A DNA stretch of 64,000 nt. Source: Streptomyces sp. B21-083 (GTDB taxonomy: Bacteria > Actinomycetota > Actinomycetes > Streptomycetales > Streptomycetaceae). The position numbers and the translations under genes are program-made. The notes below the pieces were generated by a model. That model worked only from the letters and a program-made list of their open reading frames with translations. It ran no database searches and was not told the DNA's origin. Positions 57,718 through 63,545 of this stretch are shown here, one piece after another. The DNA is taken from assembly GCF_036898825.1 (NCBI RefSeq), contig NZ_JARUND010000001.1:2666001-2730000 (forward strand), written 5' to 3'. The stretch's first letter is position 1, and each line of letters opens with the position of its first letter.

Positions 57718-58791
57718 TTACTGCCCGCCGCGTCCCTGTTCGTAGGCGCGCAACTGCTCGGCGCTGATCATGCCGGTGTCGAAGAGGCTGGTCTCGTCGA
57801 GGGCGTACGACTGCTGCTGTTCCGCCTGTGCGTAGTCCTGCTGGCCCTGCTGGTCCTGGGCGGGGTCGTAGGCGGCCTGTGAGCCGTCGTACGCCTGGTA
57901 GGCGTAGGGGTCGGCCGTCTGGTAGCCGTACTGGTCCTGCTGCTGGGCGTACGCCTGCTGGTAGCCGCCGTAGGGGTCGGCGGGCTGCTGGTAGCCGTAC
58001 TGGTCCTGCCGGCCGTACTGCTGCTGGGCCGGGATCTCCGCCGCGCGGGGCTGTTCGGCGGGGGCGTCCGGGACGACGGCGAGGCCGGCCAGGAAGTCGG
58101 CGTCACTGGTGTGCTGCCTGGAGGTGCCGTCGTCGTCCTGGCCGAGGGCGCCGAGGTCGTCGCTGGCGATGCGGCCGTGCAGGGTCTGCCGGCCTCGGCC
58201 GACGGCCTCCAGGGTCTTGGCGAGGACGGCCTCGAAGGCGCCGAGCTTCACGTCGACGTATTTGTCGGCGTTGACACGCAGGGTCTCGGGGTCGTGGCTG
58301 CGCTCGGGGGCGTCCTCGTCCTCGTACCCCTGGTCGTCGAGGCCGGGGCCGGTGCCGAGCAGCTTCTCGCGGCCGCGGCCGACCGAGCCGAGGGTCTTGG
58401 TGAGGACGACCTCGAAGTTGGCGAGCTTGGAGTCGACGTAGTCGTCGGCCTCGGCGCGGACGTCCTCGGCCTCCTTGCGGGCCTCCGTGAGGATGCGGTC
58501 CGCCTCGCTCTGGGAGCGGCGGGCGACCTCCGTGTCGGAGATCAGCGAGCCGCGCTCCTCGTGCGCGGTCCGGATGATCCGGTCGGCCTCCTGGCGGGCC
58601 TGGTCGACCAGCTGTTCCCGGTCGCCGATCAGCTCCTGTGCCTGCGCGAGGGAGCCGGGCAGGGCCGCGCGCACCTCTTCCAGCATCGCGAGCAGTTCGG
58701 CGCGGTTGACCACGCACGAGGCCGACATGGGCATCGACCGGGCACTGGAGACCGAGGAGACGATCTCGTCGAGCTTCTTCTGCACGTCCAC
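57718..58791 (-). CDS. Coiled-coil protein annotated widely as cell division initiation protein; Q/Y-rich tail
   Basis: The 357-residue protein starts at GTG 58791. It is coiled coil over about 30-120 and has a 32-residue internal duplication (about 115-146 and 175-206, 'YVDSKLANFEVVLTKTL' / 'YVDVKLGAFEAVLAKTL'). Residues ~254-330 form a Gln/Tyr/Ala/Asp-rich low-complexity tail with 'QYGYQQPADPYGGYQQ'-like repeats, then a short conserved end. There is no signal or membrane span. The type is DivIVA-like by coiled-coil pattern. Its role is not proven; cytoskeletal scaffolding is inference. It lies between the DUF177 gene and coaD. Confidence 0.8.
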   Translation of the reverse strand: MDVQKKLDEIVSSVSSARSMPMSASCVVNRAELLAMLEEVRAALPGSLAQAQELIGDREQLVDQARQEADRIIRTAHEERGSLISDTEVARRSQSEADRILTEARKEAEDVRAEADDYVDSKLANFEVVLTKTLGSVGRGREKLLGTGPGLDDQGYEDEDAPERSHDPETLRVNADKYVDVKLGAFEAVLAKTLEAVGRGRQTLHGRIASDDLGALGQDDDGTSRQHTSDADFLAGLAVVPDAPAEQPRAAEIPAQQQYGRQDQYGYQQPADPYGGYQQAYAQQQDQYGYQTADPYAYQAYDGSQAAYDPAQDQQGQQDYAQAEQQQSYALDETSLFDTGMISAEQLRAYEQGRGGQ

Positions 58792-58893: not shown

Positions 58894-59373
58894 TCAGTCC
58901 TTCTTGAGGCGGCCGTCGAGGGCTTCCAGGACCAGTGGCGGCACGAGGTGGGACACGTCCCCGCCCCAGGCGGCGACCTCCTTGACGAGCGAGGAGGACA
59001 GGAAGCTGTAGGTGGGATTGGTCGGTACGAAGAGCGTCTCGACGCCGGACAGCCCGTTGTTCATCTGGGCCATCTGGAGTTCGTAGTCGAAGTCACTGAC
59101 CGCGCGCAGGCCCTTGACGATGGCCGGGATGTCGCGCTGCTTGCAGAAGTCGACGAGGAGGCCGTGGAAGGACTCGACCCGGACGTTCCCGAACTCGGCG
59201 GTGACCTGGCGGATCAGGTCGATCCGTTCGTCGACCTCGAAGAGACCCTTCTTGGACTTGTTGATCATGACCGCGACATAGACCTCGTCGTACAGACGGG
59301 AGGCGCGGGAAATGATGTCGAGGTGTCCGTTGGTGATCGGGTCGAACGACCCGGGACAGACGGCACGGCGCAC
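58894..59373 (-). CDS. coaD: Phosphopantetheine adenylyltransferase
   Basis: The 159-residue enzyme makes dephospho-CoA from 4'-phosphopantetheine and ATP. It begins '[20 protein letters not shown]', containing the T/HxGH nucleotidyl-transfer motif, and ends with '[13 protein letters not shown]' (ISSTxxR-like). I chose GTG 59373 for its GAGGGA ribosome-binding site and normal length. An ATG at 59403 overlaps the rsmD stop (ATGA) and would add ten residues. Transcribed with rsmD. Confidence 0.95.
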
Positions 59374-59399
59374 TGGTGATCCCTCGCTCTCCGGTCCGG

Positions 59400-59984
59400 T
59401 CATCGTGCGTCATCGCACGTAGAGGCGGCGCGACCGTACCAAAACGTTCCCTCGCCGTAGCGACGGAACCGGAGCGCTTCGAAGCCGTCCGGCCAAGGGA
59501 ACTGACCGCCTCTGGTGCTGCGCTCCACGGTGACGAGGGCTTCGGCCGCGAGCCAGCCCCCGGCCCGGAGTGTGAGCAGAATCTCCCGAAGATCGTCGTT
59601 CTCGACGGCGTACGGCGGGTCGAGGAAGACGATGTCGTACGGCTGTGTGGACGGCGTCTGAACAACCTGTTCCGCCTTGGCCGCCCTGACCTCGGCGCCG
59701 GGCAGCCCGAGCGCCTTCACGTTCTCGCGGACGATACGGGCGGCGCGGGCGTCGGCCTCCACGAGGAGGGTGTGTCCGGCACCGCGGCTGAGCGCCTCCA
59801 GGCCCACGGCGCCCGAGCCGGCGTACAGGTCGAGGACGCGCTCACCGTCCAGGGGGCCGCCGAGGAGGGCCTGCCAGGTGGAGAAGAGGCCCTCGCGGGC
59901 GCGGTCGGAGGTGGGGCGCGTGCCTGTTCCCGGCGGGACGGCTAGGCGGCGTCCGCCGGCTGTGCCGGCGATCACGCGGGTCAT
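59400..59984 (-). CDS. rsmD: 16S rRNA (guanine-966-N2)-methyltransferase
   Basis: The 194-residue protein has '[20 protein letters not shown]', SAM-binding '[20 protein letters not shown]' and the catalytic 'DIVFLDPPY'. It methylates G966 of 16S rRNA. The rsmD-coaD order is common in bacteria. It starts at ATG 59984, downstream of recG by about 145 bp that carries a dispersed repeat. Confidence 0.93.
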
Positions 59985-60085
59985 CTGGGGTCCTTGTCCG
60001 TTTCCGTGTGGTGATTGCGGGTCCAGTTTCGCAGGCGGGGGTGGGGGCGCGTGTGTTGTTGGCGACTGCGGGTGCATGGGGGCTG

Positions 60086-60107
60086 GTCGCGCAGTTCCCC
60101 GCGCCCC
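60086..60107 (-). repeat. Dispersed Streptomyces repeat, copy B (recG-rsmD gap)
   Basis: An exact inverted copy of the 22-bp word at 55795-55816, with the same flanking GGCT/AGCC-type bases. Located between recG and rsmD. Confidence 0.85.
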
Positions 60108-60130
60108 TGGAGGGACGCGGGGTGATGGCC

Positions 60131-63100
60131 TCACCCCTTGTCCAGGTACTGCTCCCTCTCCTCGTCCAGTAGGGCGTCCAGGGCCGTGCGGAGGCCCGGG
60201 AGGTTGTTCAGGTCCGGGTCTGCGGCGACCACCGCCGCCCCCTCCTCCCTCGCCTCCGCGATGATCTCCTCGTCGTCGATGACGGTGAGCATCCGCAGGG
60301 ACGTGCGGGCGCCGGACTGGGCCTGGCCCAGGACATCGCCCTCGCGGCGTTGTTCGAGGTCGATGCGGGAGAGTTCGAAGCCGTCGAGGGTGGCGGCGAC
60401 GGAGTTGAGGCGCTGACGGGCGGGGCTCGCCTCGGGCATCTCGCTGACCAGGAGGCAGAGCCCGGCGGCCGAGCCACGGCCGACGCGGCCCCGGAGCTGG
60501 TGGAGCTGGGAGACGCCGAAGCGGTCGGCGTCCATGATCACCATCGCGGTCGCGTTGGGCACGTTGACGCCGACCTCGATGACCGTGGTGGCCACCAAAA
60601 CGTCCGTCTCACCGGCGGCGAAGCGGCGCATCACGGCGTCCTTGTCGTCGGGGTGCATACGGCCGTGCAGGATCTCGACCCTCAGCCCCTGGAGAGGGCC
60701 CCGGGTGAGTTGCTCGGCCACCTCCACGACGGCGAGCGGCGGGCGTTTCTCGGCCTCGTCCTCGGCGGACTTCTTCTTTCCGGCCTTCTTCGGGTCGTCC
60801 TCCTCATCGCCGATGCGGGGGCAGACGACATACGCCTGATGTCCGTTGCCCACCTCCTCGCGCACGCGCTCCCACGCGCGTGCCAAAAAATGGGGCTTGT
60901 CGGCGGCCGGGACGACGTGGCTGGCGATCGGGGAACGGCCGGCCGGGAGCTGGTCCAGGACCGATGTCTCCAGGTCGCCGAAGACAGTCATGGCGACCGT
61001 GCGCGGGATGGGTGTGGCGGTCATCACCAGCAGGTGCGGGGGCTGTTTGCCCTTGCCGCGCAGGGCGTCGCGCTGTTCGACGCCGAAGCGGTGCTGTTCG
61101 TCGACGACGACGAGGCCGAGGTCGTGGAACTGGACCTTGTCCTCGATCAGCGCGTGCGTGCCGATCACGAGCCCCGCCTCGCCGGTGACGAGGTCGAGCA
61201 GTGCCTGGCGGCGGGCCGCGGTGCCCATGGAGCCGGTCAGGAGGACCACCTTGGTGGCCTTGTCGGCGCCGCCGAGCATTCCGCCCTGCGCCAACTCGCC
61301 CATCATCTCGGTGATCGACCGGTGGTGCTGCTGGGCGAGCACTTCGGTGGGCGCGAGCATCGCGGCCTGACCGCCCGCGTCGACCACGGCGAGCATGGCG
61401 CGCAGGGCCACCATCGTGTTGTGAGTCACTGTGAAGTTGTCGGTGACGTAGGCGTGGCTGGGGTGCGCAACGCTGATGCACTGGACGGGCTTGCGTCCCA
61501 CGTGCTCGACCGCCCGAATTCCCCGTCGGAACGTGTTGTATTTCGGCCGGGGGCTTACCCGTTCGGCCTTTCTCCTCAGCCTGAACGGTGCGTACATGTC
61601 GGGCAGGGACACGAAGACGTTGAATGCCGCCCGCCGCGGCAGGATTCGCGCCCTGCCGCCCAGGGAGCGGACTAGCCACGCGACGTCCTCCGCGAGCCTC
61701 CTCGAGGCCGAACAGAACGAGATACTGAGTCCTCCCTTGTCGACTGTGCCGTCCGTGTCCATGAGCCCTTGGAGCACAGCGAGGCGGTTTTTGATCGACG
61801 TGTTCTTGAACTCGTCGGGAATGAACTTGCCATGCGACGTCACGCCCCAAAGGTTCAGGTCCTGCGCGGCCTGGATCACTGGATTGCGCACGCCACCCGC
61901 GCGGCGGGTCAGTTGGATCGTGTAGTCGCAGCGGGAACCGCTCACCGGAACCAGCCGACATTCCGGTGCCACGGCGGTCGCGGCTGCATCACGGATCTCA
62001 GCATCGACCGTGGACAGACGCAGGTTGTGCCGGAACGAGCCGTCTCCGAGAAGAAGACCGAACAGGTAGGGATCGAGAGGCAGCCCGCAGTCGTCTCCGA
62101 GATCGACCGGGGTGACTGCCGGGAGATACCACTTCGACGATCCGTTGGCCTTGAACGTGTCCAGCCGAATTTCTCGAGTCGTCATGACCTTGGGAGCCTG
62201 GCCACGGTGCCATCCGCAACTCGTGCCGACGATCCAGAGATGCTCGTCGTCGGACTCGACGGAACTGCCGTCCGAAAGGACCAAGCGCCAGACATCACGC
62301 TCGCCTTGTGGAAAGAGGCCGTCGATCAGCGCGATCTCCCCGTTGGGCACGACGATCTCGTCACCGACCCTCAGGTCCCCCATACGGCGGAAACCAACAG
62401 GGGTGAGGACGAGTGAGTCGAGAGGCTGAGCCTTGCCCGAGCCCACCTCTCCCTGCAGCAACCGATGCATCGGATGCTCCGCCGCCAGGTCGTCGAAGAT
62501 CTCCTTGGAGACCTTCTGCTGGCCCTCTGTGAGGGTGAAGGGGAGTTTCGCGTCGAAGGCGGTGAGAATGCCGTCCGGGGACGGTTTGCGGGGCACCGCC
62601 GGGAGTTGGGCGTCCGCGTGGCGGCGGCGGGCCAGGGCGACCTGGAGGACGAACGCCTCGTCCCACTTGAGGCGGGTGCGCGCCTCCTCGATGTCGGCCT
62701 TGGTGTGCGGGCGGTGGATCTTCAGTAGGGCCTCGGGGAGGGTGGCCAGGCCCCTGCCCTCCCGAAGGGAGGGGGGCAGCGGGTCGACGGCGTCCTGGGC
62801 GCTGAGCAGGACCGTCTGGACCGACTTGGCGATCTTCCAGGACTCCAGTTTCGCGGTGGCCGGGTACATCGGGATCAGGGCGCCCGCCCAGGAGTCGACG
62901 GCCTCCGCCGCCTCGTCTGTGTCGCCGCGCAGCAACTCGTACGCCGGATGGGCCAGCTGGAGGCGGCGGTTGAAGACCGAGACCTTGCCGGCGAACAGGG
63001 CGCGGGTGCCGGGGAGGAGTTCCTTGTGGGGTTTGTGGACTCCGTGGCCGAAGAAGACCAGTTGGATCCGGCCGCTGCCGTCTGTGATGGTGACTTCCAG

Positions 63101-63373
63101 GCGCTGGCCCTTGCCCCGGGGGGCCTTGGAGGACGCGAAGGTGTGCAGGCGGGCGTCGGCCACCTGGGCGACCACGGTCACGTGCTCGTCCATGGGGAGG
63201 TCGGCCAGGTGGGTGAGCTGGCCCCGCTCCTCGTATCTGCGCGGATAGTGGTGCAGGAGGTCGCCGACGGTGTGCAGGCCGAGGTGCTCGGCCATCACCT
63301 TCGCGGTGGCGGGGCCGAGCACTGACTTCAGCTGTTGTTTCAGGGGTTCTTCCAGTGCGGGCACGAGATCCAT
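60131..63373 (-). CDS. recG: ATP-dependent DNA helicase RecG precursor, interrupted by an intein
   Basis: The 1080-residue precursor starts at ATG 63373. The RecG parts are the wedge/OB region ('YEERGQLTHLADLPMDEHVT', 'FFGHGVHKPHKEL') and the helicase: motif I 'GEVGSGK(T)', motif Ia 'MLAPTEVLAQQHH', motif II 'LVVVDEQHRFG', motif III 'LLVMTATPIPRTVAM', and 'ATTVIEVGVNVPNATAMVI'/'QLRGRVGRGSAAG'. Between Lys314 and Thr653 a 338-residue intein splits the P-loop. Without it RecG is 742 residues, the normal size. RecG remodels stalled forks and branched DNA. The helicase cannot bind ATP until the intein is spliced out. It is the furthest-upstream gene of the recG-rsmD-coaD row. Confidence 0.95.
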   Translation of the reverse strand: MDLVPALEEPLKQQLKSVLGPATAKVMAEHLGLHTVGDLLHHYPRRYEERGQLTHLADLPMDEHVTVVAQVADARLHTFASSKAPRGKGQRLEVTITDGSGRIQLVFFGHGVHKPHKELLPGTRALFAGKVSVFNRRLQLAHPAYELLRGDTDEAAEAVDSWAGALIPMYPATAKLESWKIAKSVQTVLLSAQDAVDPLPPSLREGRGLATLPEALLKIHRPHTKADIEEARTRLKWDEAFVLQVALARRRHADAQLPAVPRKPSPDGILTAFDAKLPFTLTEGQQKVSKEIFDDLAAEHPMHRLLQGEVGSGKAQPLDSLVLTPVGFRRMGDLRVGDEIVVPNGEIALIDGLFPQGERDVWRLVLSDGSSVESDDEHLWIVGTSCGWHRGQAPKVMTTREIRLDTFKANGSSKWYLPAVTPVDLGDDCGLPLDPYLFGLLLGDGSFRHNLRLSTVDAEIRDAAATAVAPECRLVPVSGSRCDYTIQLTRRAGGVRNPVIQAAQDLNLWGVTSHGKFIPDEFKNTSIKNRLAVLQGLMDTDGTVDKGGLSISFCSASRRLAEDVAWLVRSLGGRARILPRRAAFNVFVSLPDMYAPFRLRRKAERVSPRPKYNTFRRGIRAVEHVGRKPVQCISVAHPSHAYVTDNFTVTHNTMVALRAMLAVVDAGGQAAMLAPTEVLAQQHHRSITEMMGELAQGGMLGGADKATKVVLLTGSMGTAARRQALLDLVTGEAGLVIGTHALIEDKVQFHDLGLVVVDEQHRFGVEQRDALRGKGKQPPHLLVMTATPIPRTVAMTVFGDLETSVLDQLPAGRSPIASHVVPAADKPHFLARAWERVREEVGNGHQAYVVCPRIGDEEDDPKKAGKKKSAEDEAEKRPPLAVVEVAEQLTRGPLQGLRVEILHGRMHPDDKDAVMRRFAAGETDVLVATTVIEVGVNVPNATAMVIMDADRFGVSQLHQLRGRVGRGSAAGLCLLVSEMPEASPARQRLNSVAATLDGFELSRIDLEQRREGDVLGQAQSGARTSLRMLTVIDDEEIIAEAREEGAAVVAADPDLNNLPGLRTALDALLDEEREQYLDKG
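61418..62431 (-). mobile_element. Class 3 intein with LAGLIDADG homing endonuclease in RecG P-loop
   Basis: 338 residues in frame, residues 315-652 of the precursor. The first residue is Ala (not Cys/Ser), 'AQPLDSLVLTPVGFRRMGDL'. Block B 'DDEHLWIVG' has His64 and Trp66. Block F 'KPVQCISVAHPSHAYV' has Cys318. Block G ends 'TVTHN' with Thr336, His337, Asn338; the +1 extein residue is Thr. Trp/Cys/Thr with non-nucleophilic residue 1 is the class 3 signature, first defined in mycobacteriophage DnaB inteins. Two LAGLIDADG motifs, 'LFGLLLGDG' (123-131) and 'LQGLMDTDG' (220-228), keep their acidic residues, so the endonuclease may be active. GC in three 60-base lines I counted was 62, 53 and 60%, against 72% in a flanking recG line. 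Confidence 0.93.
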
Positions 63374-63545
63374 TGCACACCACGCCACTGACATTGCCGT
63401 ATACGTACTCAGAATCCGCTGGTCAGACGGCTCGTTCCGGGCCTAGGATGGCGCGCCCCCGGCCATCCCCGCGGTCACCGCCTCACCGGGACCGCCCGAC
63501 CCCGCGCCGTCGCCAGAACCTGGTCCCCCCTCCGGCGCTGCGACG

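Follow-up and report, generated by a model that had tools for sequence, protein, structure and literature searches.

The recG gene of Streptomyces sp. B21-083 raises the question of what is encoded by the 338 extra codons in its ATP-binding loop, and what becomes of them. The stretch analysed here (the window) comprises 64,000 nucleotides of contig NZ_JARUND010000001.1, positions 2,666,001 to 2,730,000 of the forward strand. In it, the list of open reading frames (ORFs) and profile matches place recG on the minus strand at 60131..63394, as an intein-bearing precursor of 1087 amino acids (aa) from the ATG at 63394, or of 1080 aa from an alternative start at Met8 (63373). The insert (61418..62431, minus strand; precursor residues 322-659) lies, as originally predicted, precisely at the Lys|Thr junction of GEVGSGK|T, the P-loop or Walker A motif of RecG. 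Its removal leaves a RecG of 749 aa from the ATG at 63394 or, in agreement with the same prediction, a normal 742-residue protein from the Met8 ATG. Frame, profile, conservation and fold confirmed that this insert is a class 3 intein that carries a LAGLIDADG homing endonuclease domain, and we consider it highly probable that the element splices out of RecG and homes into intein-free recG genes.

The surrounding protein is unmistakably RecG. The precursor scored 1120.4 bits against the NCBIfam RecG model NF008167, above the cut-off of 995, and contains the Pfam domains RecG_wedge, DEAD, Helicase_C and RecG_dom3_C in the order of RecG. By frame reading, the N-extein (62432..63394, minus strand) ends in HRLLQGEVGSGK, and the C-extein (60134..61417, minus strand) starts TMVALRAML, with the Thr+1 codon at 61415-61417. 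The last 12 residues of the N-extein showed no difference across all 71 filled and all 28 empty loci read.

Class 3 inteins are defined in a passage of PMC3196547 by a WCT signature consisting of Trp at motif B position 12, Cys at motif F position 4 and Thr at motif G position 5. In all, 156 loci were read that carry the insert within a single open recG frame (the script required an open frame; the only two recG loci that it missed, L143 and L144, are likewise open), and these encode 113 distinct inteins. Ala1, Asp61, His64, Trp66, Cys318, Thr336, His337 and Asn338 are identical in 113 of 113, and Thr+1 is present in 156 of 156 loci. In the window copy, position 1 is Ala (62429-62431) and not Ser, Cys or Thr. 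The WCT residues are Trp66 (62234..62236), Cys318 (61478..61480), the predicted first nucleophile, and Thr336, which together with the penultimate His337 and the terminal Asn338 occupies 61418..61426; all three are also invariant across a 52-row alignment with inteins of other hosts. The motif B His at position 10 is His64 (62240..62242). Three residues ahead of it, Asp61 (62249..62251) takes the position of Asp62 in DnaBi1, a DnaB intein of Mycobacterium smegmatis, and the role of that residue is discussed in part of PMC6195587. Every residue on which the original prediction had based its class 3 assignment is present in the frame.

The insert has a two-part architecture with approximate boundaries, all on the minus strand. 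The N-terminal part of the HINT (splicing) domain covers about residues 1-104 (62120..62431), the LAGLIDADG domain about residues 118-290 (61562..62080), and the C-terminal part of the HINT domain, placed by alignment and fold, about residues 302-338 (61418..61528). Two dodecapeptide motifs were aligned in the endonuclease domain, residues 122-133 (62033..62068) with the catalytic acid Asp130 at 62042-62044, and residues 220-230 (61742..61774) with Asp227 at 61751-61753. The profile check proposed with the original prediction bore it out, as the insert alone matched the LAGLIDADG family PF14528 at 36.2 bits (cut-off 22.5). It also matched segments of models for intein-containing DnaB and RecA, far under their whole-protein cut-offs, as would be expected of a fragment. 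Against solved class 3 DnaB inteins it matched 6bs8 with an E value of 2.5e-6. The fold predicted for the intein (predicted local distance difference test score, pLDDT, 93.6) is PI-SceI-like along its whole length, and the splicing part of this model is a HINT fold resembling the solved class 3 DnaB inteins.

The site is occupied in a minority of Streptomyces. In a sample of 392 genomes, site state was assigned by sequence pattern, and by protein search in the remaining 121. An uninterrupted GEVGSGKTMVA-type pattern was found in 203 genomes and the HN|TMVAL junction of a filled site in 68. The protein search added 115 uninterrupted genomes (58 + 57; these include the partial G121, the frameshifted G119 and six with a gap about 45 residues downstream) and three filled genomes (G233, G254 and G389), and did not find recG in three draft genomes (G001, G050 and G099). 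In total, 318 genomes have an empty site, 71 are filled and 3 are unknown; 45 of the filled genomes carry a full-length intein and 26 a copy shortened in the endonuclease region. This comparison, also proposed with the original prediction, gave no sign of a normal conserved domain. We also observed that the frame of recG in G119 (G119:C425) changes just past the intein site, and that G196 has a second recG-like piece (G196:C12:86924-87385), 64% identical and with one stop.

Beyond this count, a scan of genome contigs found 117 loci encoding a relative, of which 80 were kept; all 80 lie in recG, 79 in Streptomyces and one in Actinacidiphila. The same recG site is filled in Kitasatospora and Actinomadura proteins (three such proteins read). 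A class-wide sample of 296 genomes contained 115 with some related match, and 25 loci newly fetched from it comprised four recG genes (all Streptomyces), 16 PhoH genes and five genes for other proteins, including DnaB and an SF2 helicase. Among 120 proteins listed, NCBI gives many of the intein-bearing RecG sequences the name 'helicase-related protein'. This naming hides RecG, which may look absent in annotation-based surveys.

The two activities of the element appear to be under different constraint. Among the 113 distinct inteins, 87 have at least 330 residues and 26 are shorter; both endonuclease aspartates are retained in 68 of the full-length copies and in five of the shortened ones, so that these aspartates decay while the class 3 residues stay invariant. 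Among the 45 full-length genome copies, residues 1-100 had a median ratio of nonsynonymous to synonymous divergence (dN/dS) of 0.09 and the last 34 residues one of 0.05, against 0.16 in the endonuclease. The lower ratios in the splicing parts indicate that constraint on splicing is stronger than on cutting.

The published class 3 mechanism supplies a splicing path that would fit this intein. recG would be translated as a single precursor of about 1080 residues, unable to bind ATP properly, in which the insert folds into a HINT domain and the endonuclease forms a lobe of it. Cys318, aided by His64, Asp61, Trp66 and Thr336, would attack the Lys|Ala1 bond and accept the N-extein, which would then pass to Thr+1. 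Cyclisation of Asn338 would release the intein, and an O-N shift would restore GEVGSGKT in a 742- or 749-residue RecG. At the DNA level, the endonuclease would cut intein-free recG at the intein site, and repair would copy the element in. Within Streptomyces the element would arrive, spread, lose its endonuclease and keep its splicing core; it is absent from most sampled species.

It is a fair inference, as had been claimed, that RecG function needs splicing, because the site splits Walker A and no second recG was found in the genome around the window (10.5 Mb). A search of that genome with a RecG segment returned both halves of the interrupted gene and one 38% match in a 1237-residue frame, which is probably Mfd; on this result, we rejected the idea that a second recG makes splicing unnecessary. 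RecG, a fork-rescue helicase, would then depend on protein splicing in 71 of the 389 sampled Streptomyces genomes with an identified recG.

Several lines of evidence suggest movement of the intein between recG genes. On an extein tree built from 70 genes with the intein and 28 without it, intein presence requires at least 19 changes. The copies L084 and L093 differ at an intein synonymous divergence (dS) of 1.16, yet their exteins are nearly the same (dS 0.12, dN 0.004). The median ratio of intein to extein dS was 2.3, and intein dS fell below 0.8 of extein dS in 12 of 990 pairs; the window copy is in two of these, with L085 (ratio 0.71) and L086 (0.69). Base composition at third codon positions also sorts the copies. 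The median difference in guanine plus cytosine (GC) between an intein and its own extein was -0.129 for full-length copies (n=45) and -0.010 for shortened copies (n=26), with p 4e-7, or 6e-7 for the splicing part alone, values that are only a guide since the genomes are related. Full-length copies are foreign-like in this measure and shortened copies host-like. A cycle of arrival, endonuclease decay and host adjustment predicts this GC pattern, and the GC and decay patterns together would fit the classical homing cycle. The patchy distribution and the flank pattern are indirect indications that the endonuclease may cut an intein-free allele.

Other observations weigh against this interpretation. 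The extein tree was built by a fast method and only 31 of its 95 branches are starred as strong; the strongly supported branches force just 8 changes. When presence was shuffled, the mean was 24.3 changes and only 1 of 500 shuffles was as low as 19; intein presence is thus partly inherited and clustered on the extein tree. Length is no proof of endonuclease activity, as 19 of the 87 full-length copies are without one or both aspartates. Conflict between intein and extein trees (deltaL 380-1081) is a weak argument, which we do not use as proof, because each half of recG likewise rejects the tree of the other (deltaL 233 and 116). Robinson-Foulds distances hardly separate the trees (58 vs 60 and 66), and the dS rank correlation was 0.58 between extein halves vs 0.48 between intein and extein, a modest gap.

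A possible vehicle was found on plasmids. Plasmid records gave no close source of the window copy, the 33 with a match being all less than 60% identical. Three Rhodococcus plasmids come closest, at 45%, and their recG-like gene carries an intein at the same site, 45-50% identical depending on the aligner. In a tree of 52 class 3-type sequences, confined to that type, the Rhodococcus plasmid intein clusters with the Streptomyces RecG inteins (support 99), and a P-loop SF2 helicase intein is the neighbour of that group (support 88), with a program warning of long branches for both the Rhodococcus plasmid and the SF2 helicase rows. Four other plasmid records encode a 91-96% identical protein with a stretch of the query uncovered, and in the one that was read the intein site is empty. 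Plasmid-borne recG with and without the intein makes such plasmids a possible vehicle, and the Rhodococcus plasmid intein is likely to be a relative of the source. The filled Rhodococcus locus L287 and this empty locus, L286, share 98.5% identity in the part farther than 420 bases upstream of the site, but only about 88% within those 420 bases and across 1.2 kb downstream, to the gene end. This stretch is a possible homing footprint, a donor tract copied with the intein; a larger recombination would explain it equally well, because the genes downstream of the two loci differ.

Phages and viral contigs were rejected as a near source. The 655 matching phage records are all below 60% identity, with the 20 listed at no more than 37.5%; the 48 loci from IMG/VR are at most 38% identical, and RecG flanks occurred in none of 38 readable junctions. 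A separate 39.5% match lies in enterobacterial-type plasmids (records H24-H28), in traD in one and with no listed feature in four.

Vertical inheritance within some species groups gives the insert the look of a normal RecG part, and a lineage-specific domain or an assembly artefact might then merely resemble an intein. However, 318 of 392 genomes are empty at the same codon boundary, the insert family also occurs in PhoH, DnaB and other P-loop proteins, the fold matches inteins, and the insert is seen in many independent assemblies. A normal RecG domain is ruled out by the empty sites, the fold and the other hosts; the empty sites together with the LAGLIDADG and class 3 DnaB intein matches show that the resemblance is not due to chance, and we give this explanation negligible weight. 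An intein that no longer splices, with RecG lost in Streptomyces sp. B21-083, is also very improbable. Persistence of a dead copy is conceivable, as RecG is non-essential in E. coli. Inactive class 3 inteins do exist, Arth_1007 among them, but that intein is described in a passage of PMC3196547 as without Cys F4 and His B10, whereas no class 3 residue is missing from the window copy, which also has the motif B His. The strong purifying selection on the splicing parts likewise argues against a dead intein, and none of the fetched recG loci has a broken frame across the insert.

A different proposal, compatible with splicing and homing, is that splicing is slow or conditional and frees RecG on demand in response to redox state, metal or branched DNA. 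The original prediction had suggested redox or stress control of this kind, for which precedents exist: according to passages of the respective papers, peroxide inhibits splicing of DnaBi1 through a disulfide between Cys48 and the catalytic Cys118 (PMC6195587) and inhibits N-cleavage of the MchDnaB1 intein (PMC7664689). The position of DnaBi1 Cys48, however, aligns with Val47 of the RecG intein. The sole other nearly invariant cysteine of the family, Cys60 beside Asp61 (109 of 113 copies), is Ser in two other copies and in the window copy (Ser60, 62252..62254, minus strand). RecG itself has one cysteine near the N-extein start and others at C-extein residues 199 and 321, all distant in sequence from the intein site. 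As in any class 3 intein, Cys318 itself could be oxidised; a redox switch of the RecG intein appears unsupported. Retention of a shortened intein in 26 of 71 filled genomes, few of whose distinct copies keep both aspartates, would suit a switch, as would the near-invariance of Cys60 in the family, but shortened copies would also be expected to persist if precise deletion from the P-loop is rare, and most Streptomyces do without the intein. We therefore regard conditional splicing as improbable. A stronger version, in which some Streptomyces have domesticated the intein after endonuclease loss as a post-translational restraint on fork rescue, lifted when the splicing core senses a signal, for example through Cys60 and Cys318, is a speculation that we think quite unlikely. 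If it were true, the window copy, which has Ser60 and retains its endonuclease in full, would be the unregulated and still mobile form, and the same gene would offer a natural pair of switch and non-switch.

Downstream of recG on the same strand lie an rsmD-like methyltransferase ORF (59400..60134, PF03602) and a coaD-like nucleotidyltransferase ORF (58894..59403, PF01467). The rsmD-like ORF overlaps the recG end, stop included, by four bases, and this arrangement suggests that the three ORFs are probably co-transcribed. Downstream of the coaD-like gene, a 357-residue ORF (57718-58791, minus strand) has no Pfam match and a tail rich in Gln and Tyr that carries a 66-base tandem repeat (57903-58027). 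Rfam returned nothing reaching the gathering score over the window.

The class 3 group and its splicing mechanism are amply documented (passages of PMC7664689, PMC6195587 and PMC3196547), and the RecG intein belongs to an established kind of mobile element, of which it is a well-preserved example, and does not found a new one. The original prediction knew of no described RecG example. This did not hold, as RecG is among the intein-containing eubacterial proteins in Table 1 of a 2018 review (PMC5874633), and many database proteins carry the insert. The host is shared with the RecG inteins of that table, although the passage gives no class, site, species or sequence; a class 3 intein of RecG described at sequence level was not found in the open-licence literature. 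The mycobacterial DnaB class 3 inteins (MsmDnaBi1, 6bs8; MchDnaB1, 6rix/6riy) have Ser at +1, whereas the RecG intein has Thr, a RecG host and a full endonuclease domain, and is without the Cys48 redox partner of DnaBi1. The actinobacterial PhoH class 3 inteins are 35-43% identical over the whole length, with the same class 3 residues and nearly always Thr+1; they differ in their site, YMRGR|TLNDAF, outside the P-loop, and form a separate clade in the 52-intein tree. This sister intein occurs in Streptomyces and other actinobacteria (L128-L131, L136-L141, L205-L217, L219, L221 and L225).

Insertion after the P-loop Lys is common among viral class 3-type inteins, many of the 38 readable IMG/VR junctions being Lys|Thr or Lys|Ser. 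These inteins are 24-38% identical to the RecG intein and their hosts are terminases, AAA and superfamily 1 and 2 (SF1/SF2) proteins, and others, with no RecG flanks in the junctions read. In the IMG/VR loci (L227-L274), the viral ATPases interrupted by class 3-type inteins are many and diverse, and the insertion lies at the P-loop Lys or close to it. Among phage P-loop inteins in general, the Lys|Thr site of mycobacteriophage TerL1-a is termed 'classic' in a passage of PMC5050341. The yeast VMA1 intein PI-SceI shares the two-part architecture of HINT and LAGLIDADG domains, and differs in being larger and only 16-18% identical. PI-SceI is a class 1 intein. Set beside these systems, the RecG intein offers an ordinary mechanism with unusually useful data, in which what appear to be the stages of a homing cycle, sorted by base composition, stand side by side at a single recG site within a single genus.
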